From positions 6,502,001 through 6,566,000 of the forward strand of contig NZ_CP097800.1 in assembly GCF_000612545.2 (NCBI RefSeq): 64,000 nt of DNA. Direction: 5' to 3'. This document shows, one piece after another, positions 6,813 through 64,000 of this stretch. The DNA comes from Streptomyces sp. PCS3-D2 (lineage in GTDB: Bacteria; Actinomycetota; Actinomycetes; Streptomycetales; Streptomycetaceae). Below the pieces are notes generated by a model. The model saw only the letters and a list, made by a program, of their open reading frames with translations. It did no database searches and was not told where the DNA came from. How positions within the stretch are numbered: position 1 is the stretch's first letter; each line of letters starts with the position of its first letter. Both the position numbers and the translations under genes were made by a program.

Positions 6813-9800
6813 GGCTGCACAGGCTGGCCGTCACCGCCTTCGGGCCGTTCGCCGCACCCCAGGAGATCGACTTCGACGCCCTCTCCGGCGCCGGCATCTT
6901 CCTGCTGCACGGACCCACCGGTGCGGGCAAGACCTCGGTGCTCGACGCCGTCTGCTACGCCCTCTACGGTTCGGTGCCCGGCGCCCGCCAGGCCCCCGGC
7001 ACCAGCCTGCGCAGCGACCACGCCGCCGCCGGCACCCCCACCGAGGTCACCCTCGAACTCACCGCGGGCGGCCGGCGCCTGGAGATCACCCGCCGCCCCG
7101 AGCAGGAGCGTCCGAAGAAACGGGGCACGGGCACCACCAGGGACAAAGCGCAGAGTTGGCTGCGCGAGCGCACCGGCGCGGGCTGGGAGGCGCTCAGCCG
7201 ATCCCATCAGGAGATCGGCGAGGAGATCGAGCAGCTGCTCGGCATGAGCCGCGAGCAGTTCTGCCAGGTCGTGTTGCTGCCGCAGGGGGAGTTCGCGCGG
7301 TTCCTGCGCGCCGACGAGGCGGCCCGCGGCCGGCTTCTGGGCCGGCTCTTCGACACCCGCCGGTTCGCGGCCGTGGAGACCCTGCTCGGGGAGCGGCGCC
7401 GGGCCGCCGAGGCCCGGGTCCGGGCCGGCGACGAGAAGGTGCTGCACACCGCCCAGCGGCTCGCCCAGGCCGCCGGGGACAGCGCCGACCTGCGGGCCTG
7501 GCCACTGCCCGGACACCAGCCGGGAGACCCCGGGCTGGCCGGAGCGGTCCGTGCCTGGGCGGCCGTCGCCCGCTGCTCGGCCCGGGACCGCCTCGACGTC
7601 GCCGCGTACGCGCTCGCCGCCGTCGAAGGCCGGCACGCCGCCGCCCGGCGGGCCGCCGAGGAAGCGCGCGAGCTCGACCGGCTGCAGCGCCGGCACGCGG
7701 AGACCGTCCGCCGCGCCGCGCTGCTCGCCGAGGCCGGGCCGGAGCGGGAGCGCGTGCGCGGGCTGCTGGACGGGGCCCGGCGCGGAGCGCTGGTGGCCCC
7801 CGCCCTGGAGCTGCGCGGCGCGGCCTCCTCGGCGCACCTCGCCGCCGCGCACGCCGAGACGGCCGCCCGGGCGGAACTGCCGCCCCCGCTGCGGGAGGCG
7901 GGCGCCGAGCAGCTGGCCGGCGTCGAGCAGCGGCTGCGCGAGGAACTGGGCGCGCTCGGCGCCGCGTACCGCGCCGAGCAGCGCAGCGCCGGGATCGGCC
8001 GCGAACGGGCCGACCTGGAGCGGGAGTCCCGGGCGGCGGAGGAACAGCACCAGGAGTCCGCCGAGTGGCTGGAGCACTGGGAGGAGACCCGCACCGCCCT
8101 TCAGGAGAAGGTGGACGCCGCCCAGCAGGCCGCCACCCTGGCCGAGCAGCTGGCCGGCCGGCTGGAACCGGCCCGGATGAGCCTGAACGCCGCCCGCAGG
8201 CGGGACGGGTTCGCCGCCGAGGAGGAGCGCGCCGAGGGCGAACTGCTCGACCTGCGCGAGGAGTCGGCGGCCGCGCGGGAGAGCTGGCTGGAGCTGAAGG
8301 AGGCCCGGCTGCGCGGAATCGCCGCCGAGCTCGCCGAGGCGCTGGTGGCCGGAGAAGCCTGCGGCGTGTGCGGATCGGCGGAGCACCCCGCTCCGGCACG
8401 CCCCGCCCCCGGCCATGTGGACCGCGCCGCCGAGGACGCCGCCCACGCCGTCCTCGAACGGGCCGAGCGGGCACGGGCCGCCGTCGAACGCCGGCTGGCC
8501 GCCGCCCGGGAGGCCCGCGCCGAGGCGGCGTCCGCCGCCGGCGACGCCACCACCGCCGAACTCCTTGGTCTCACCGCCGACCTGAGCGCCCGCCACGCCG
8601 CCGCCCACGCCACGGCCGCCGGCCTGCACACCGCCCGCGAGCGGCTCGCCCGGGCCGAACGGGAGTACACCACGCGTAGCGCCGATCGGCTCGACGCAGA
8701 GACCCGGGCCGCCGCCAGGGCCTCCCGCCGCGAGGCCCTGGACCGGGAACAGGCCTCGCTGGAGGCCGAACTCGCCCTCGTGCGGGGCGATGCGCCCACC
8801 GTCGCGGCCCGTGCCCGAACCCTGGAGGACCGGGTCAGGACCGTCGCCGGTGCCGCGGTCTGCCTGCGCCGGGCCGAGACGGCCGCCGCCCGGCTGAAGG
8901 AGGCCGACGACCAGCTCGCCGACGCCGCCTTCAAGGCCGGCTTCGACACCGTCGAGGCCGCCGCCGACGCGGTCCTCCCCGACTACGAACGCACCGCTCT
9001 CCAGCACCGGTTGGACACCTGGCAGGCCGAGGAGGCCCTTCTGGCGGACCGTCTCGGCGAGAGTGGCACCGCCGAGGCGGCGGCGCTGCCCCCGGCCGCG
9101 CCGGACACCGCCGAGGCCTACGCGGTCCAGGCCGCGGCGAAGCTTCGTACGGCGGCCTCCGCCTACGACGCGGCCCGGGCCCGCTGCACCGAACTGGACC
9201 GGCTCTCCCGCCAGATGGAGCAGGAACTGCGTGCGCTCGGGCCGCTGCGCGAGGAATACGGCCGGGTGGCCCGGCTGGCCGGACTGACCGCGGGCACCTC
9301 CGCCGACAACGAGCGCAAGATGCGTCTGGAGGCCTACGTGCTGGCCGCCCGTCTGGAGCAGGTGGCCGCGGCCGCCACGGTACGGCTGCTGCGGATGTCC
9401 GGCGGCCGCTACACCCTGGTCCACTCCGACGCGAGAGCGGGCGGGCGGGGGCGTTCGGGCCTCGGGCTGCACGTCGTCGACGCGTGGACGGGCAGCGAGC
9501 GGGACACCGCCACCCTGTCCGGCGGTGAGACCTTCTTCGCCTCGCTCGCACTCGCGCTCGGCCTGGCCGACGTGGTCACCGACGAGGCGGGCGGCACGCG
9601 CCTCGACACCCTCTTCATCGACGAGGGCTTCGGCAGCCTCGACGACCAGGCGCTGGACGAGGTGCTCGACGTGCTCGACTCGCTGCGCGAGCGGGACCGC
9701 AGCGTCGGCATCGTCAGCCACGTCGCCGACCTGCGGACCCGGGTCCAGACCCAGCTGGAGGTCGTCAAGGAGCGCGGCGGCTCCGTCGTGCGCCACCGCA

Positions 9801-30048: not shown

Positions 30049-30792
30049 TCAGGCGCCGGCGGGGACGAACGCCGGCGGGGACCAGGTGGTGAGGAAGGAC
30101 TGCGACGACCAGGTGCCCGAGAGGGGCGGGGCCAGCCAGGAGGGGGCCGCGGCGCGGAAGCGCTCGGGGGGCAGGGTGCCCGAACACTCCGGGACCGCGC
30201 CCAAAAGCGGCAGCTCCGAGGACCTCGGGAGGTCCGCCAGGTTGCAGCGGGCCGCGAGGTCCGGGGAGTGCGGCCAGCTGCCGACCACCACACCCAGCGG
30301 GGTCAGACCGCGGACCCGCAGGGCTTCCGCCGTGAGGGTCGTGGAGTTGAGGGTGCCCAGACCCGCCTGGGCGACGATCAGGGTCGGGGCGTCCAGCAGG
30401 CGCGCCGCGTCGGCCAGCGTGTGGCCCGCCTCGTCGAACTGCACGAGCAATCCGCCCGCACCTTCCACCAGGACCAGGTCGTGATCCTCCGACAGCCGCC
30501 GCGCGGCCTCCGCGATCTGCGCCGGGGCCAGTGTCGGCAGCCCCGCGCGACGGGCGGCCGTGTCCGGAGCCAGGGGCTCCGGGTAGCGGGCCAGTTCCAT
30601 CGCCGTCACGGAGGGGCCGGCGAGCCGTGCCACCTCCGCCGCGTCCCCCGGCTCCTGCGGACCGACACCGGTCTGTGCGGGCTTGAGCACCGCCACCGAG
30701 CGGCCGGCCGCCACGGCCGCCGCCGCAACGGCAGAGGTGACCACGGTCTTGCCGATCTCCGTGCCCGTCCCGGACACGATCAGTACGGACAT
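30049..30792 (-). CDS. bioD: Dethiobiotin synthetase
   Basis: The 247-residue product closes the ureido ring of biotin, using ATP, CO2 and DAPA. The P-loop GTGTEIGKTVV is at residues 8-18, with KPAQTGVGPQE and LVEGAGGLLV as further active-site motifs. It lies downstream of bioA with ten bases between, in a bioB-bioA-bioD unit. The last 40 residues are Ser/Pro-rich and may be disordered. ATG 30792 is the family start. Confidence 0.95.
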   Translation of the reverse strand: MSVLIVSGTGTEIGKTVVTSAVAAAAVAAGRSVAVLKPAQTGVGPQEPGDAAEVARLAGPSVTAMELARYPEPLAPDTAARRAGLPTLAPAQIAEAARRLSEDHDLVLVEGAGGLLVQFDEAGHTLADAARLLDAPTLIVAQAGLGTLNSTTLTAEALRVRGLTPLGVVVGSWPHSPDLAARCNLADLPRSSELPLLGAVPECSGTLPPERFRAAAPSWLAPPLSGTWSSQSFLTTWSPPAFVPAGA

Positions 30793-30802
30793 CTGCGCCT
30801 TC

Positions 30803-32125
30803 TCAGCCTTCCTGGGCCGCCGCGCACACCGCGCGGCAGATACGGGTCACGTCCGCGTCGCCCGTGACGAACGGCGGCATCACATAGATCAGGTCCCGGA
30901 AGGGCCTCAGCCACACGCCCTCGCGCACCGCCGCCCGGGTGGCCGCGACGACGTCGACCTCGTGGTCCAGCTGGACCACGCCGATGGCGCCCAGGACCCG
31001 TACGTCCCGCACACCGGGGATCCCGGCCGCGGCCGCCAGGCCCTCGCGCAGCCCCGTCTCGATCCGCTTGACGTCGAACGCCCAGTCCTGGCCGAGCAAC
31101 AGTTCCACGGAGGCCAGCGCCACGGCCGTGGCCAGAGGGTTCCCCATGAAGGTCGGTCCGTGCGCCAGCACCGGGACCTCGCCCTGGGAGATCCCGTCCG
31201 CCACCCGCTCCGTGCACAAGGTCGCCGCCAGCGTGAGGTAGCCACCCGTCAGGGACTTGCCCAGGCACATCACGTCCGGGGTGACTCCGGCGTGGTCGGC
31301 CGCGAAGAGCGCGCCGGTACGGCCGAAACCTGTGGCGATCTCGTCCAGGATCAGCAGGACCCCGTACTCGTCGCACAGTTCGCGCAGCACCCGGAGGTGG
31401 GCGGGGTGGTGGAAACGCATGCCGCCCGCGCCCTGCACCACCGGCTCCACGATCACGGCGGCCAGCTCGTCCGCGTGCGTGGCGATCATGCCGCGCAGGT
31501 GGTCGGCGTACGCGGGATCCACGGGCGTGTCGAAGCCGCCCGGCGGGGCGTCCGCGAAGACCTGCCGCGGCAGGTGGCCCTGCCACAGCTCGTGCATGCC
31601 GCCCTCCGGGTCGCACACCGCCATGGGCTGCCAGGTGTCCCCGTGGTAGCCGCCGCGCCAGGTGAGCAGCCGGGTCTTGCCGGTGCGCCCGAGCGAACGC
31701 CAGTACTGGAGGCACATCTTGACGGCGACTTCGACGGAGACCGAACCCGAGTCGGCGAGGAAGACGTGTTCCAGTCCGGGCGGGGTGATCTCGACGAGCT
31801 TCGCCGCGAGCCGGACGGCGGGCTCATGGGTGAGCCCGCCGAACATCACGTGCGACATGCGCCCGAGCTGCGCGGTCACTGCCTCGTTGAGCACCGGGTG
31901 GTTGTAGCCGTGGATGGCCGACCACCAGGAGGACATGCCGTCGACCAGCTCGTCGTGACCTTCCCCCTGGGACGGGTCGGCGAGCCTCAGCCGCACCCCC
32001 GTGGCGGAGGCGATGACCAGCGGCTCCTGCCGTCCGGGCATCGGGCCGTACGGGTGCCAGACGTGCTGCCGGTCCAGCGCGAGCAGTTCCGCACCGGCCG
32101 ACCGCGGGTGGGACCGGTCAGGCAT
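30803..32125 (-). CDS. bioA: Adenosylmethionine-8-amino-7-oxononanoate aminotransferase
   Basis: The 440-residue product is a class III PLP aminotransferase that makes DAPA from KAPA with S-adenosylmethionine as amino donor. Motifs include [11 protein letters not shown], the Trp pair [38 protein letters not shown] and the PLP lysine in [11 protein letters not shown]. The ATG at 32125 overlaps the bioB stop by eight bases, so translation is coupled. Length and motifs are standard. Confidence 0.96.
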
Positions 32126-33374
32126 TGGGCGCGATGTCCGTCCCCGCGCCGCGGCGGCGCACCGCCACCAGGTCCGACCGCAGCTCGCCGGGCCCGGCCT
32201 GGGCCGGCTGCTCCGGCACCGGCGCGGCCTCCGCGTGCGGGTGCCCCGAACAGCCGCCGCACGCCGATCCGCAGCCCACGGCGTCGTCGGCCCCGGCCGC
32301 GCCCGAACCGCACACCGAGGCACCGCCCTGAGAACCGCAGCCGCCGGAGGGGGCCGCGTCGGCGGCGTCGGAGCGGTGCGCGGGAAGGGTCGTCGTACCG
32401 GCGCCCTCCACCTCGAAACCGGCGTCCGCGATCATGTCGAGGTCGGCCTGGCCGGCCTGCCCCTCACTGGTGAGGTAGTCACCGAGGAAGATCGAGTTGA
32501 CGATGTTCAGCGCCAGCGGCTGCAGCGAGCGCAGGTGCACCTCGCGCCCGCCCGCCAGCCGGACCTCGACGTCGGGGCAGACGAACCGCGCCATCGCCAG
32601 GATCCGCAGGCAGCGCTGCGGGGTGAGGTTCCACTCCTTGGCCAGCGGCGTGCCCTCGAAGGGGATCAGGAAGTTGACCGGGACCGAGTCGGCGTCCAGC
32701 GCGCGCAGCGAGAAGACCACGTCGACGAGGTCCTCGTCGGTCTCGCCCATGCCGGCGATCAGGCCCGAGCAGGCCGACAGGCCCGCCGCGTGGGCCTTCT
32801 CCACGGTGTCCACGCGGTCGGCGTAGGTGTGGGTCTTGGTGATCTGGCCGTAGGTGGCCTCGGAGGTGTTCAGGTTGTGGTTGTAGGCGTCTGCGCCGGC
32901 CTCGCGCAGCTTCTCCGCCTGGCCGTCCGAGAGCAGACCGAGGCAGGCACAGACCTCGATGCCCTCGTTCTGTTCCTTGATCGCCTCGATCGTCTTGCCG
33001 ACACGCTCCACGTCGCGGTCCGTCGGCCCGCGGCCGCTCGCCACCAGGCAGACCCGCTTGGCCCCGCCCGCAACACCCGCGGCGGCGGCCTGGGAGGCCT
33101 CCTCCGGCTTGAGCCACGTGTACTTGAGGATCCCGGCCGTCGAGCCCAGCCGCTGGGAACAGTAGGAGCAGTCCTCCGGGCACAGGCCCGACTTCAGGTT
33201 GACCAGGTAGTTCAGCTTGACCCGACGCCCGAACCACTGACGGCGCACCTTGCCGGCCGCGGCCACCACGTCGAGCAGTTCGTCGTCAGAAGTCGCCAGT
33301 ACGGCGAGCGCTTCTTCGCGGGTCGGCAGCTCGCGCCGCAGCCCCTTGTCCACCAGGGTGTTCAGCAGGTCCAT
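32118..33374 (-). CDS. bioB: Biotin synthase with Cys/Gly-rich C-terminal extension
   Basis: The 418-residue product is a radical-SAM enzyme that inserts sulfur into dethiobiotin. The 4Fe-4S motif [12 protein letters not shown] is near residue 65. Conserved cluster-binding and substrate residues follow in [21 protein letters not shown] and [12 protein letters not shown]. The core ends near residue 345. After it comes a tail of about 70 residues with five cysteines in Gly/Ser-rich context ([23 protein letters not shown]), then an Ala/Pro-rich end. E. coli BioB lacks this tail. It could hold or donate iron-sulfur clusters, by inference. It is the first gene of bioB-bioA-bioD and is divergent from bioF. 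Confidence 0.95.
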
Positions 33375-33438
33375 GGAGCTGATCCTGGACCACTCGACCC
33401 ATCCCGGCCAAGGAGAGATCGCACAACATGGCCGGATG

Positions 33439-33460
33439 GGTGTGTGTGTATCACCACACC
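33439..33460. promoter_or_regulatory. Possible operator in bioB-bioF divergent region
   Basis: GGTGTG (33439-33444) and CACACC (33455-33460) form an inverted repeat with a ten-base spacer, in a TG-rich stretch between the two divergent biotin genes (65 bases from bioB and from bioF). Position suggests a biotin repressor site, but it does not match a consensus I can name with confidence. Confidence 0.3.
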
Positions 33461-33524
33461 TGGCGGACACGTCGCGGCGGCTAGGGTCGGGCAGGCCTGT
33501 GGACTGCCGACAAAACACGAGGAC

Positions 33525-34700
33525 ATGCCGATGCCCCAGCACACTCCCGATCCCGCGGACGTCTTCGCCTGGATCGACGCCGCGGAGCGGGCACGGGAGC
33601 ATGCCGGGCTGGTCCGCACCCTGCGCCCCCGGCCGCCGGTGTCGCCGCTGCTGGACCTCGCGAGCAACGACTACCTCGGCCTGTCCCGGCACCCCGAGAC
33701 CGTCCGCGGGGCCCGCGAGGCGGCCGAGGGCTGGGGCGCCGGGGCCACCGGCTCCCGCCTCGTCACCGGCACCACCGAACTCCACGCGGAACTGGAACGG
33801 GAGCTCGCGGCCTTCTGCGGGTTCGAGGCCGCGCTCGTCCTGTCCTCCGGATACGCGGCCAACCTCGCCGCGGTGACGGCGCTCAGCGACCGGGGCACGC
33901 TCGTCGTCTCCGACGCCGGCAACCACGCCTCCATCGTCGACGGCTGCCGACTCTCGCGCGCCGAGACCGCGGTGGTCGCGCACGCCGACCCGGACGCCGC
34001 GCGCAAGGCGCTCGCCGCGCACGCGGGCCGGGCCCTGCTGGTCACCGACTCGGTGTTCTCCGTCGACGGCGACGCCGCTCCGCTGGGAGCCCACGCGGCC
34101 GTGTGCCGGGACGTGGGAGCGGCCCTGCTCGTGGACGACGCCCACGGACTGGGCGTATTGGGTGAGGGCGGCCGTGGTGCGCTGCACGCCGCCGGGCTGG
34201 CCGGCGCGCCCTACGTGGTGGCCACCCTGACCTTGTCGAAGTCGCTGGGCAGCCAGGGAGGTGCCGTGCTCGGCCCGGCCAAGGTGATCAGGCACCTGGT
34301 CAACACGGCGCGCACCTTCATCTTCGACACCGGGCTGGCCCCGGCCGCCGCGGGAGCGGCACTGGCGAGCCTGCGCCTTCTCCGGCGGGAGCCGGAGCGC
34401 GCCGACCGGGCTCGCGCGGTGGCCGACCGGCTGTACGGGAGGCTCACTGCCGCCGGGCTGACCGCGGCCCGGCCGGACGCGGCCGTGGTGTCGGTGCGTG
34501 CCCCGTCGGCTCCGGAGGCGCTGCGCTGGGCCGCCGACTGCCGCGAGGCGGGTCTGTCCGTGGGGTGCTTCCGCCCGCCGTCGGTGCCGGACGGCATCTC
34601 CCGGCTGAGGTTGACCGCCCGGGCCGACCTGACGGGGGAGGAGATCGATCGGGCGGTCACGACGATCGTCGCCACCGCGCCTGCCGGGGCCGCGCCGTAG
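33525..34700 (+). CDS. bioF: 8-amino-7-oxononanoate synthase
   Basis: The 391-residue product joins pimeloyl thioester and L-alanine to KAPA, the first ring-building step of biotin synthesis. PLP-fold motifs are [62 protein letters not shown] and the PLP lysine in [18 protein letters not shown] 33525 is used; ATG 33531 is also possible. It is divergent from bioBAD, and together they supply the late pathway. No pimeloyl-forming genes are in the window. Confidence 0.95.
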
Positions 34701-59462: not shown

Positions 59463-59625
59463 GCACTGCGGCCTGCGTCCCGGCCGCCCGCTGCGGGGCC
59501 GGCTGCGCCGCCGTGAATCATGCGGCGCATGCATGGACTCCTCGGGCACCGCGCTCTAGCGTCGGCCGACGGTGCGACGCCAGACGCGATGTCAACAGGC
59601 CCGCTCCGACACGGAGGAGTCGCGG

Positions 59626-61197
59626 ATGTTCCGAAGACCGCTGAGCTGCGCCGCGGTGCCCGTCCTGGCCGCCTTCGCGGTGCTGCTCCACAGCGGCTCC
59701 GGGGCCGGGGCCGGCGGGGAGATACCCAAGGCGCCCGGCCACCGGCTGATCGCCCGTTACGAGGGCAGCCCCGCCACCGCCGCCCCGCTGCCGGGCGAGG
59801 GGCCTCCGCAGCACCCGTACCTCGCGCCGAACGGCCGCAGCGGCATGCACTCCGACGCGGCCGGGAGTGCCACCTCACCCTGGTCCGGTCCGCTCGGCGA
59901 GAACCCTCAGGTGACCAGCCAGCAGATCGCGGTCCTGGGAGGCGAGTGCGCCACCGCCACCTTCGACTCGGGCGGTCGACTCGTCACGGTCTGCGGCACC
60001 TTCTCGGGCTTCAAAGTCAAGCTCCTGCACCCGGGTACGCTCGCCACGCTCGCGGAGTACCGGCTCCCGCAGCGCTCCTCCACCGTCGAGGCGATCACCT
60101 CGCTCGACTTCTCGAAGATCTTGAAGGACACCTCGGGCGGCGCCTACTTCTACCTGGACGACCGGGACCGAGCCGTCCTGGCCGACTCGCGGCAGCACGT
60201 CCTGCGCCTCGCCCACTCCCAGAACGCCGACGGAGGCTGGAAGTTCAGCGTCGTCGACGACTGGGACCTCACCGGCCACGTCCCGCACGACTGCGTCGCC
60301 TGGACCAACCTGCGGCCCAACGGCACCTGCGACCCCGTCACCTCGGTGATGCCCGACTGGGACGGCCGGATCTGGTGGGTGACCCGCCAGGGCCGGGTCG
60401 GCACCGTGGATCCGGCGACCTCGCAGATCCGCTCCGTGCGGCTGGAGGGCGAGGAGATCCAGAACTCCTTCTCGGTGGCCGAGGACGGCGTCTCCATCGT
60501 CTCCGACCACGCGCTCTACGGCTTCCGGGCCGCCGCCGACGGCACCCCCGAGGTGCAGTGGCGTCAAACCTACGACCGGGGGACCGGTACCAAGCCCGGT
60601 TCCGTCAACCAGGGTTCGGGCACCACGCCGGACCTCTTCGGCGACGGCTACGTCGCCATCACCGACAACGCCGACGACCGGATGAACGTCCTGGTCTACC
60701 GGCGGGGCACCGATGTCGCCGCGGACCGGCGGCTGGTCTGCAAGGTGCCCGTCTTCGGCTCCGGCTCCTCGACCACCGACAACTCCCTGATCACCTGGGG
60801 CAACAGCATCGTCGTCGAGAACAACTACGGCTACGAGAACCCCGCCGGCCTGCTGTTGGGCAGGTCCGTCCTGGGCGGGGCGACCCGCATCGACGTCCGC
60901 GCCGACGGCAGCGGCTGCGACACGGTGTGGGAGAGCGCCGTGCGCGCGCCGTCGGTGGTACCGAAGCTCTCCACCGCGAACGGGCTGCTCTACTTCTACG
61001 AGAAGGAGCCCAACGACTGGGGGATCGACGGCTGGTACCTCACGGCCGTGGACTTCCGCACCGGCGAGCGGCGCTGGCGGCAACTGACCGGCACCGGCCC
61101 CCTCTACGACAACAACTGGGCGCCCATCACGCTCGGCCCCGACGGCACCGCGTACATCGGGGTCTTCAACGGCATCGTCGCCGTCCGCGACCGCTGA
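59626..61197 (+). CDS. Secreted protein of unknown function, beta-propeller-like
   Basis: The 523-residue product has a signal peptide (VPVLAAFAVLLHSGSGAGA). It is rich in WxV, DGxxY and GR-type strands with blade-like spacing, for example MPDWDGRIWWVTRQGRVGTVDP and LYDNNWAPITLGPDGTAYIGVFNGIVAV. It resembles PQQ-like or YncE-type propellers, but no family could be named. Four or more cysteines (GGECATATFD, VCGTFSG, HDCVAW, GTCDPV) could form disulfides outside the cell. ATG 59626 has GGAGGAG eight bases upstream. It precedes the streptavidin remnant. Confidence 0.7.
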   Translation: MFRRPLSCAAVPVLAAFAVLLHSGSGAGAGGEIPKAPGHRLIARYEGSPATAAPLPGEGPPQHPYLAPNGRSGMHSDAAGSATSPWSGPLGENPQVTSQQIAVLGGECATATFDSGGRLVTVCGTFSGFKVKLLHPGTLATLAEYRLPQRSSTVEAITSLDFSKILKDTSGGAYFYLDDRDRAVLADSRQHVLRLAHSQNADGGWKFSVVDDWDLTGHVPHDCVAWTNLRPNGTCDPVTSVMPDWDGRIWWVTRQGRVGTVDPATSQIRSVRLEGEEIQNSFSVAEDGVSIVSDHALYGFRAAADGTPEVQWRQTYDRGTGTKPGSVNQGSGTTPDLFGDGYVAITDNADDRMNVLVYRRGTDVAADRRLVCKVPVFGSGSSTTDNSLITWGNSIVVENNYGYENPAGLLLGRSVLGGATRIDVRADGSGCDTVWESAVRAPSVVPKLSTANGLLYFYEKEPNDWGIDGWYLTAVDFRTGERRWRQLTGTGPLYDNNWAPITLGPDGTAYIGVFNGIVAVRDR

Positions 61198-61311
61198 CCG
61201 CCGGCGGTCACCGCCCTACGCTCTTCCCCGGACGAGCCCGTGGCCTTCCGCCGTCACGGGCTACGGGCGGGCCCTGCCGGCCCGCACAGGGGGAATCGTC
61301 TCGCGACGCGT

Positions 61312-61731
61312 ATGCGCCAAGCCTCAGTCGCACGGTGCGCCGTGTCCCTGACCCTCGCCACCGTATCCGCGCGCGCCGCCGCCGACACCCGGGGAACGGT
61401 GTCCGTCGAGGCCGCGAACGGCGGGTACGTCGGCACCTACGAGTCGGCGGTCGGCAACGCCGAGAAGCGGTACGCCATGACCGGCCGCTACGACAGCGTG
61501 CCCGCCGACGGGACCGGGGCCGCCGTCGGATGGACGGTCGCCTACCGCAACGCCCACCGCGATGCCCACTCCGTCGCCACGTGGAGCGGTCAGTACGTCG
61601 GCGGCAGACAGGAGCGGATTTCCTCGGCTGCAACGAGCTCACCCGTGCCGGGCCCTCCGCCGAAGAGTTCGACACGGCGCGCCGGCTGGGCGTCACACCT
61701 GCCAATCCACCGGCCTCCGACGGGGGAGTGA
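61312..61731 (+). pseudogene. Streptavidin-like (avidin family) gene, degraded
   Basis: ATG 61312 opens a signal-like leader ([20 protein letters not shown]) that aligns with the streptavidin signal. The body then matches streptavidin strands closely: [42 protein letters not shown]. The first beta-strand, which in streptavidin carries Asn23 and Ser27 of the biotin pocket, is missing. After YVGGRQERI the frame is lost. The C-terminal tail ([19 protein letters not shown], like the streptavidin end) is in a different frame from 61617. The segment that would hold Trp108 and Trp120 is deleted. The remnant cannot form a normal biotin-binding barrel. It sits in the same window as bioBADF. Confidence 0.85.
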
Positions 61732-61775
61732 GTCGACCCGGCGGTCGAGCGTGCGATCCATCCGCAGCGAGAGGA

Positions 61776-64000
61776 CTACCGCGGCGGGCGGGTCACCCCG
61801 GTGCGCACCCGGTCGACCGCCGCCAGGCGCGCCCCCACGTCGAGGTCCCACAGCCGTACGGTGCCGTCCGTGCTGCTGCTCGCCACCGTCCGCCCGTCGG
61901 GGGCGAAGACGACCCCCCACACCGCGCTCGTGTGTCCGGAAAGCGCCGCCAACGCGCGCCGGCCGGACACGTCCCACAGCCGCACCGTGCGGTCGTTGCC
62001 GCTGCTCGCGAGCGTGCGGCCGTCGGGGGAGAAGGCGATGCCCCGCGCCGACCCGGTGTGACCGGCGAGGGTGGCCTCCGGTCGGTGGCTGCCCGCGTCC
62101 CAGAGCCGTACGGTCCCGTCGTTGCCGCTGGAGGCGAGGGTGCGCCCGTCGGGACTGAAGGCAACGCCCCGAACCGCCCCGGTATGACCGGTGAGGGTGG
62201 CCAGCGGGCGCCGTCCGGCCACGTCCCACAGGCGAACCGTCAGATCGTCGCCGGCGCTCGCCAGAGTGCGCCCGTCGGGACTGAACGCCACGTCGTTGGC
62301 GAAGTCGGTGTGCCCGCTGAGCGTCGCGAGAGGGCGGCGCGAGGCGACGTCCCACAGCCGGACCGTGCCGTCGGAGCCGGCCGAGGCCAGCGTCCGCCCG
62401 TCCGGTGCGAAGTCCACCGCGAACACGGTCCCGCCCTGGCCGGCCAGGACCGCCGAAGGGGTCCCCGCGGCGACGTCCCACAGCCGGACCGTGCCGTCGG
62501 AGCCGGCCGAGGCCAGCGTCCGTCCGTCGGGCGCGAAGTCCACCGCGAAGACCGTCTCACTGTGCCCCTCGAAGGCGGCCGCCACCCGGCGCCCCGCCAC
62601 GTCCCACAGCCGGACCGTGTGATCCGCCTCCGCCGTGGCGAGCAGCGTTCCGTCCGGGCTGTACGCGGCGTGCCAGACCTCCGTGAACGGCCGCGAGGCC
62701 AGCATCGCGCCCCGCAGGTCCCACAGCACCACCGACTGGTCGAACCCGGCGGTGGCCAGCACCGCCCCCCGGCTGTCGACGGCCACCCCGAGCACGTAGT
62801 CGGTGTGCCCGGCGAGCGTGGCCGTCAGCCGGCCGCCGGCCACGTCCCACATCCGGGTGGCGCCGTCGCCGCCCGCGCTCACCACCGTCGTCCCGTCCGG
62901 GGTGAAGGCGACACCGTTGACGTCATCGCTGTGGCCGGTCAGCACGGCCCTCGTCCGGCGTCCGGCCACGTCCCACAGCCGCACGGTACGGTCCACGCCC
63001 CCCGTGGCGACCGTATGGCCGTCCGGGGCGAACGCCGCCCCCAGTACCTCGTCGGTGTGCCCGGACAGCACCGCGAGCGGACGTGCCTCGGCCACGTCCC
63101 ACAGCCGCACGCTCCGGTCGGCGCCCGCCGACACGAGCGCCCGGCCGTCCGCGGCGAAGGACAGGGCGTTGACCCGCCCGGCATGCCCGGCCAGGGACGC
63201 GACGGCGCGGTACTCCCCGCTGGTCTCCCACAACCGGACCGTCCCGTCCGGGCAGCCGGTCGCCACGCTCCGCCCGTCCGGTGCGAAGGCCACGGCCCGC
63301 GTGCCGGTCGTGCTCGTCGGGAGCACCGCCGCCGGGCGGCCGTCGGCGGTGTCCCACAGTCGCACGGGCCCGTCCGTGGAGGCCGCCGCGAGGGTCCGGC
63401 CGTCGGGGCTCAGGGCGACCGAGCGCACCCGTCCGGGAAGCCTGAAGGTTGCGGTCGTGTGCCGGTCGGACACCCGCCGCAGGGTCACCGTCCCATCGGA
63501 ACTGCCCGTCGCCAGCATGCCGTCGTCCGGTCCGAAGGCGACCGTGTTGACCGGCCCGCCGTGTCCTCCCAGCCGGGCGACGAACGGCTGCGATTGCGTG
63601 CTCAGCAGCGCACCGCGAGCCTCGCTCGTTCGCGCGGTCCGGTACGCGTCCCCGGCGAGCAGCATCGAAGCCTCCGGCTGGCCGGCGGCCAGCGCCGCCG
63701 ACTGCAGCGCGAGCGCCCGTGAGCGGGCGATCCGCTCCTCGCCGAGTGCCCTCGTACGCTGCTGGTACGCCAGCCCGCCCGCGCCCACGGCCAGGACCAG
63801 GAGCACGACCAGGGTGGCCAGCATCCGCTGGCGCAGCCGCGCCTGGCGGGCTGCCTGCCGCTCCCGGACCTCCTGGGCCTTCTGGCTCTCCCGGAGGAAG
63901 GCCGCCTCCCGGGGGGCGAGGCGGCTCCGGCCGTCGAGCTCGTCCGCCCAGGAGAGGGCGGTGTCCAGCCGGGTACCCCGGTGGAGCGCCGACGGATCGC
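61776..64000 (-). CDS. WD40-repeat protein (nSTAND-type C-terminal half), 5' end outside window
   Basis: The visible part begins beyond the right edge. It contains a short region ending TALSWADELDGRSRLAPREAAFL, a coiled coil (QKAQEVRERQAARQARLRQR), a membrane helix (MLATLVVLLVLAVGAGGLAY) and then fourteen WD40 repeats (two seven-blade propellers). Repeats have the usual HTxxVxxVAFSPDGRTLASAGxDxTVRLWDV form. Adjacent blades 9 and 10 are nearly identical in DNA. Such proteins in Streptomyces usually carry an N-terminal NTPase or protease/caspase-like domain and may be defence or signalling proteins. That part is not in the window. Confidence 0.9.
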   Translation of the reverse strand, partial: DPSALHRGTRLDTALSWADELDGRSRLAPREAAFLRESQKAQEVRERQAARQARLRQRMLATLVVLLVLAVGAGGLAYQQRTRALGEERIARSRALALQSAALAAGQPEASMLLAGDAYRTARTSEARGALLSTQSQPFVARLGGHGGPVNTVAFGPDDGMLATGSSDGTVTLRRVSDRHTTATFRLPGRVRSVALSPDGRTLAAASTDGPVRLWDTADGRPAAVLPTSTTGTRAVAFAPDGRSVATGCPDGTVRLWETSGEYRAVASLAGHAGRVNALSFAADGRALVSAGADRSVRLWDVAEARPLAVLSGHTDEVLGAAFAPDGHTVATGGVDRTVRLWDVAGRRTRAVLTGHSDDVNGVAFTPDGTTVVSAGGDGATRMWDVAGGRLTATLAGHTDYVLGVAVDSRGAVLATAGFDQSVVLWDLRGAMLASRPFTEVWHAAYSPDGTLLATAEADHTVRLWDVAGRRVAAAFEGHSETVFAVDFAPDGRTLASAGSDGTVRLWDVAAGTPSAVLAGQGGTVFAVDFAPDGRTLASAGSDGTVRLWDVASRRPLATLSGHTDFANDVAFSPDGRTLASAGDDLTVRLWDVAGRRPLATLTGHTGAVRGVAFSPDGRTLASSGNDGTVRLWDAGSHRPEATLAGHTGSARGIAFSPDGRTLASSGNDRTVRLWDVSGRRALAALSGHTSAVWGVVFAPDGRTVASSSTDGTVRLWDLDVGARLAAVDRVRTGVTRPPR

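Follow-up and report, generated by a model that had tools for sequence, protein, structure and literature searches.

The relic sav2 gene and its lesions

The stretch analysed here (the window, 64,000 nucleotides of Streptomyces sp. PCS3-D2, contig NZ_CP097800.1) carries close to its right-hand end the remains of a streptavidin gene, located between genes for a PQQ-like and a WD40-repeat protein, with the primary biotin genes further to the left. Judged from its alignments, the segment 61303-61731 is a dead streptavidin gene, namely sav2, which is the second of the two streptavidin genes in the "Streptavidin BGC Nexus". The features of the locus are as follows:

30049..34700, mixed strands: bioD, bioA and bioB (minus) and bioF (plus), primary biotin genes with open frames, identified with NCBIfam
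59572..61197, plus strand: beta-propeller-like gene (PQQ-like by our reading), the left nexus flank in relatives; orthologues in 80/393 genomes
61303..61731, plus strand: pseudogene of sav2 (streptavidin 2), delimited by the positions of the ancestral start and the ancestral TGA in a DNA alignment with six intact sav2 genes
61409..61411, plus strand: point of a 90-nt in-frame deletion, removing strand 1 with Asn56 and Ser60 of Sav2
61410..61619, plus strand: retained sav2 body, 89-92% identical at the DNA level to the six intact genes, keeping Tyr76, Ser78, Asn82, Tyr112 and Ser121
61619..61620, plus strand: point of a 58-nt frame-breaking deletion, removing Trp141 and Tyr145 of Sav2
61620..61728, plus strand: remaining sav2 tail, read in a different frame from the body; its GHD motif has become GCN
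61776..63824, minus strand: WD40-repeat protein gene, the right nexus flank in relatives; start uncertain, because the frame continues to the window edge
61795..61803, no strand: nexus deletion junction, with the sav2 3' flank on the left (S. virginiae C7:121688) and the end of the WD40 gene on the right (C7:170548)

The relic passes the curated cut-off of Pfam PF01382 (E 3.3e-8, 34.4 bits, cut-off 24), with a partial match to profile positions 17-81 of 116. A phmmer search against PDB sequences gave 135 matches at E ≤ 0.001, and the best 60 of these 135 were all streptavidins (E 2e-25 or better), spanning approximately residues 32-99 of the query. Avidin-family proteins fold as an eight-strand barrel, and the relic does not encode a complete barrel in one frame, as strand 1 is gone with the 90 nt and the 58-nt deletion is accompanied by a frameshift. 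The PF01382 profile has a single match in the 7.6-Mb genome of this strain, which is the relic, and no second avidin gene was found by this search.

The relic shares its family with streptavidin (sav1), and its body aligns with the PDB streptavidins at E ~1e-25, but its DNA identity to sav1 is just 77-81%, and sav1 lies as a gene of its own at the opposite end of the nexus, inverted relative to sav2. The 89-92% identity of the body was obtained with the intact sav2 copies of S. virginiae, S. amritsarensis, S. sp. F-2664, S. sp. F-2580, S. katrae and S. avidinii, and all six of these species (orthologues found by name) also have sav1. With the sav2 genes of the nexus in S. avidinii and S. virginiae, as described in the available parts of PMC13336041, the relic has the left flank gene, position, strand, tail and 3' flank in common; unlike these it has neither the nexus nor a sav1 gene beside it, and unlike the intact genes it has no start codon, carries two deletions and is split over two frames.

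The ancestral start is GTG in all six intact orthologues and GCG in the relic (61303-61305), and hence the start codon is lost. The ATG at 61312 is a new triplet, where the relatives have GTA or TTA, and by eye a ribosome-binding-like AGGGGGA is better placed for the lost start. The length of the in-frame deletion, 90 nt, equals the spacing of two GCCGCG direct repeats in four of the five intact sav2 genes tested (positions 160 and 250 of the fetched stretch; S. avidinii left out, F-2580 being the exception), and for this reason slippage between direct repeats is the likely cause; a single GCCGCG copy remains in the relic at 61411-61416. Beyond the second deletion, the tail and 3' flank (61620-61794) are 80% identical to S. 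virginiae sav2 DNA in the other frame, and in the window control tblastn with sav2 picks up the tail as a separate match (E 3e-13). A one-base insertion near the end puts the ancestral TGA (61729-61731) back in the frame of the body. As a side observation, the intergenic region 61198-61302 is ~100 nt shorter than in S. virginiae, and an inverted repeat seen there by eye after the upstream gene is absent.

These results bear out the original prediction of a decayed streptavidin gene, as both deletions and the lost frame were confirmed against intact orthologues, the avidin-family match of its translations was recovered, and the tail does continue in another frame. The first strand, said to be missing, corresponds to the 90-nt deletion, and the missing segment for Trp108 and Trp120 to the 58-nt one. 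The predicted span of 61312..61731 was right, except that the ancestral start lies at 61303-61305. The biotin pocket, described as removed, is reduced and not wholly removed: the Sav2-acidomycin structure in the available parts of PMC13336041 names nine Sav2 contact residues, and with the Sav2 numbering verified at all nine, Asn56, Ser60, Trp141 and Tyr145 are deleted (4/9) and the other five are retained. Tyr112 and the Ala of HSVATW differ from classical streptavidin and are shared by the intact Sav2 proteins of S. virginiae and S. avidinii. Going beyond the prediction, the alignments identify the gene as sav2, not the classical sav1, add the loss of the start codon, and place the gene at the probable scar of a ~49-kb loss of biotin-antimetabolite clusters plus sav1.

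The substitution evidence for decay is mixed. Private changes are found at 35/328 conserved sites of the relic (compared with six other sav2 genes) and at 119/2949 sites of the flanks (50/1318 + 69/1631, counted from five species, as the set includes no S. katrae flanks), giving an odds ratio of 2.8 (p 1.6e-6, Fisher test); with the same five species the count for the relic is 36/335. The intact sav2 genes of S. virginiae, S. amritsarensis, F-2664 and F-2580 have no excess of private changes over their flanks, and the intact S. avidinii sav2 is also fast (37/365 in the same columns vs 148/3097 in its flanks). The third-position bias of the relic cannot be separated from that of intact sav2 genes, which themselves show no strong bias, and together with the fast S. 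avidinii gene this led us to drop codon-position decay as proof of long neutrality. Amino-acid changes at codons uniform in all other sequences number 5/17 in the leader, 3/58 in the body and 11/25 in the tail, where the last two (2/11 in the tail, 2/19 of all private changes) stem from the one-base insertion and not from substitution. With three amino-acid and four silent changes in 58 codons, the retained body does not have a relaxed appearance; it still looks gene-like and the tail after the frameshift does not, which would fit a loss that is not very old, or stepwise losses.

The junction between the flanking genes

The collinearity with the nexus-bearing relatives breaks directly beside the relic. 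Window positions 23076-61619 are collinear with S. virginiae C7 80002-121455, with small gaps and in the same direction, and 61804-64000 matches C7 170548-172744, in the same direction as the left block; the same two blocks are seen against S. avidinii. The sav2-side homology ends at 61794, ~60 bases beyond the stop of sav2, and the WD40-side homology begins at 61804; thus S. virginiae 121,689-170,547 (~48.9 kb) has no counterpart at this site, where nine bases are found instead. What is absent comprises sav1 and the entire nexus, with its stravidin, acidomycin and alpha-methyl-KAPA clusters. By eye, the two sides of the junction have in common only a short CCGCnnCCGGT-like stretch. The C-terminus and stop of the WD40 gene (61776-61800) have been rewritten, in that its last codons and stop lie in former sav2 3' flank DNA.

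The position of the relic between the PQQ-like and WD40 genes is that of the nexus in relatives. For the PQQ-like gene the orthologue count was made at E ≤ 1e-150 and includes the strain's own genome, and no family match was found in a Pfam and NCBIfam search of the protein. In place of the two streptavidin genes of a nexus the genome has one relic only, and the acd, sta and mkp clusters, which lie between the sav genes of a nexus, are missing from the site. We also searched the genome for nexus DNA elsewhere, using S. virginiae 121.76-170.54 kb in three pieces, and among the best 40 of >1000 first-look candidates scored in each search there was none at orthologue identity: matches of >300 bases were 64-72% identical (one being bioB), matches of ≥80% were all <90 bases, and the sav1 part hit only the relic. 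In the primary biotin genes, TIGR00347, TIGR00508 and TIGR00433 score above their cut-offs, and TIGR00858 gives 385.8 bits for bioF, under its cut-off of 426.45.

The nexus and avidin genes in related genomes

According to the available parts of PMC13336041, the nexus is made up of mkp, sta and acd, joined in S. virginiae by nda, and has sav1 and sav2 at its two ends. The S. virginiae strain of that paper is DSM40094, and the genome compared here is NRRL ISP-5094, which is named in the accessible parts of PMC13111796 as a carrier of the acidomycin and stravidin clusters; the same source lists several acidomycin-cluster strains without a stravidin cluster. In trees of both flank genes (two genes with 14 and 10 sequences, excluding S. 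katrae and most nexus-free genomes, and hence not a whole-genome phylogeny) the window forms a clade with S. virginiae, S. sp. F-2664 and S. amritsarensis (support 100/100), and it is sister to S. amritsarensis in the WD40 tree (97/97), with the same pairing in the PQQ-like tree (83/81). In the comparison with close relatives called for by the original prediction, these three were all found to have sav1, an intact sav2 and nexus DNA.

The nexus DNA is unbroken over S. virginiae 121.8-160.0 kb in F-2664 and F-2580, and in S. katrae it is present as pieces on several contigs. The S. amritsarensis nexus is without a 12.5-kb piece that is also absent in S. avidinii and corresponds, by the published order, to the place of nda. 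As a separate observation, the nexus DNA of S. amritsarensis MTCC 11845 (G433 C90:6611-32316) includes the part matching S. virginiae 145.1-160 kb, whereas S. amritsarensis JCM 19660 is given as lacking the stravidin cluster in the portions of PMC13111796 at hand, and this discrepancy may be a difference in strain or in search settings.

We also compared the PQQ-like gene and the DNA following it in 21 nexus-free genomes; the 20 kb retrieved include the WD40 gene in four of them (G054, G199, G227 and G269) and not in the other 17. Both flanks of these four sites are shared with the window, but the DNA between them (5.6-10.8 kb) is different and has no recognisable piece of sav2. A tblastn search for sav2 in nine of the 21 stretches (these four and five others) gave nothing convincing (best E 0.027, window control E 3e-58). 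The nexus-bearing S. avidinii groups in both flank trees with three of the nexus-free species (G199, G227 and G269), and judging from this grouping the nexus appears to have been gained and lost at this site more than once, or DNA has moved between strains. The three genomes G054, G199 and G269 keep ~4.5 kb, and G227 keeps 0.7 kb, of DNA that is also present beside sav1 in S. avidinii. This ~4.5-kb stretch (G039 C18:27129-31597, between sav1 and the WD40 gene), common to the former three, ends at 31586-31597 in all of them, by the end of inter-nexus homology (31601); it marks the sav1-side nexus border and is absent from S. virginiae. The gap in G227 (L123 ~7673-7810) contains stretches of 74 and 52 bases, 83-90% identical to the S. 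avidinii nexus at 39.0 and 38.7 kb, either a nexus crumb or a shared gene motif.

In the genus scan PF01382 matched in 10/393 Streptomyces genomes, which agrees with the original prediction that streptavidin genes are rare even in Streptomyces, and its check for an intact paralogue came out negative in the own-genome search. The genus scan scored the strain's own genome as no match though the relic is found by the own-genome search, so decayed copies can be undercounted there; a second scan of 383 of the same genomes added no avidin gene. A DNA search of 61 relatives with the relic gave short weak matches in 19 other genomes (E 2.8e-6 or worse), with no match in the phage records searched and two weak ones in the plasmid records. 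Avidin-like stretches 42% identical to the relic are present on two Streptomyces plasmid records (NZ_CP109361.1:36745-36945 and NZ_CP108366.1:1346666-1346866), the first being a 64-kb plasmid of S. sp. NBC_01562 where the stretch is annotated as avidin/streptavidin family protein. Another partial avidin gene, probably broken (L011; G255 C1:9404446-9404628, minus strand), has a frame open for 71 residues only (profile positions 9-72), lies ~0.33 Mb from the chromosome end and by eye is like another avidin subfamily (intact L005 and L006).

Probable loss of the nexus and its implications

Taken together, the collinearity break, the position of the strain nested among nexus carriers and the lack of orthologue-like nexus DNA elsewhere in the genome argue that the locus is very probably the scar of a deletion of the whole nexus (~48.9 kb in S. 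virginiae coordinates), with the dead sav2 as the only remnant found. The deletion would have begun ~60 bases downstream of the sav2 stop, extended as far as the last WD40 codons and left sav2 outside. As there is no long shared stretch at the junction, and sav1 and sav2 are inverted, we infer a single illegitimate deletion event. We considered sav1-sav2 recombination as the source of the deletion and rejected it, as inverted genes would give an inversion and not a deletion, and the junction lies outside both. Selection on sav2 may have been relaxed after the deletion or already before it, and the death of the gene through the lost start codon, the 90-nt and 58-nt deletions and the 1-nt insertion could stand in either order to the nexus loss. 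The decay may have come about because the partners of sav2, the antibiotics that it neutralises or works with, were gone; a secreted biotin sink without nexus partners may bring only cost. Transfer of flank blocks between strains is conceivable and counts against the deletion, since the nexus is patchy, with G199, G227, G269 and G054 lacking it.

That the strain never had the nexus, and that its ancestor had a lone sav2 at this site which later decayed, appears improbable. Nexus-free species with the same flanks do exist (the four genomes above), and only one streptavidin-like gene was found in S. olivoreticuli and S. boncukensis in that scan, but both flank trees group the window with three nexus carriers at full support, the relic body resembles intact sav2 at 89-92% and is followed by the sav2 3' flank, sav1 accompanies sav2 in 6/6 species, and the nine nexus-free stretches gave no convincing sav2 piece. 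It is very unlikely that the truncated frame (new ATG at 61312 to TGA at 61731) is still made and useful as a minimal exported avidin fragment: while it is open, ends at the ancestral TGA, begins three codons after the lost start and has a body with just three private amino-acid changes in 58 codons, strand 1 and the Trp141/Tyr145 segment are gone, the tail is in a foreign frame, AGGGGGA fits the lost start better (by eye), and 11/25 conserved tail codons are changed, two of them via the one-base insertion. An assembly or sequencing error can hardly be credited; the case is a single genome known from its assembly alone, but the site lies inside a 7.5-Mb contig of a genome listed as 100% complete with 0.04% contamination, and four separate lesions plus 35/328 private substitutions are unlike read errors.

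The streptavidin family, the nexus (2026) and the patchy content of clusters are known already; no mention of a streptavidin pseudogene or nexus deletion scar was found in the literature searched, including the available parts of PMC13336041, PMC13111796 and PMC8033661. In the published model, as given in the accessible parts of PMC13336041, acidomycin is neutralised by Sav1 and Sav2, which also take up biotin alongside the stravidins. Tentatively, the whole-nexus deletion might offer a natural experiment on the 2026 model of streptavidin as a shield of its producer against acidomycin: once the antimetabolite clusters were deleted, sav2, unneeded for self-protection or co-attack and costly as a biotin sink, would have mutated, and the strain's own biotin operon stayed. 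If this is true, sav2 should survive across Streptomyces only together with at least one nexus cluster.

Streptavidin is among the most used proteins in biology, and why a soil bacterium makes it is still argued, a question on which the scar bears and from which it draws its interest. As a probable loss of the entire block, the case is an example of a nexus lost as a single unit, and a strain losing its partner antibiotics and (then, before or simultaneously) its streptavidins offers a direct comparison with nexus-bearing sister species. With this case it can be tested if self-protection and co-attack are what streptavidin is kept for, or if it has a use of its own.
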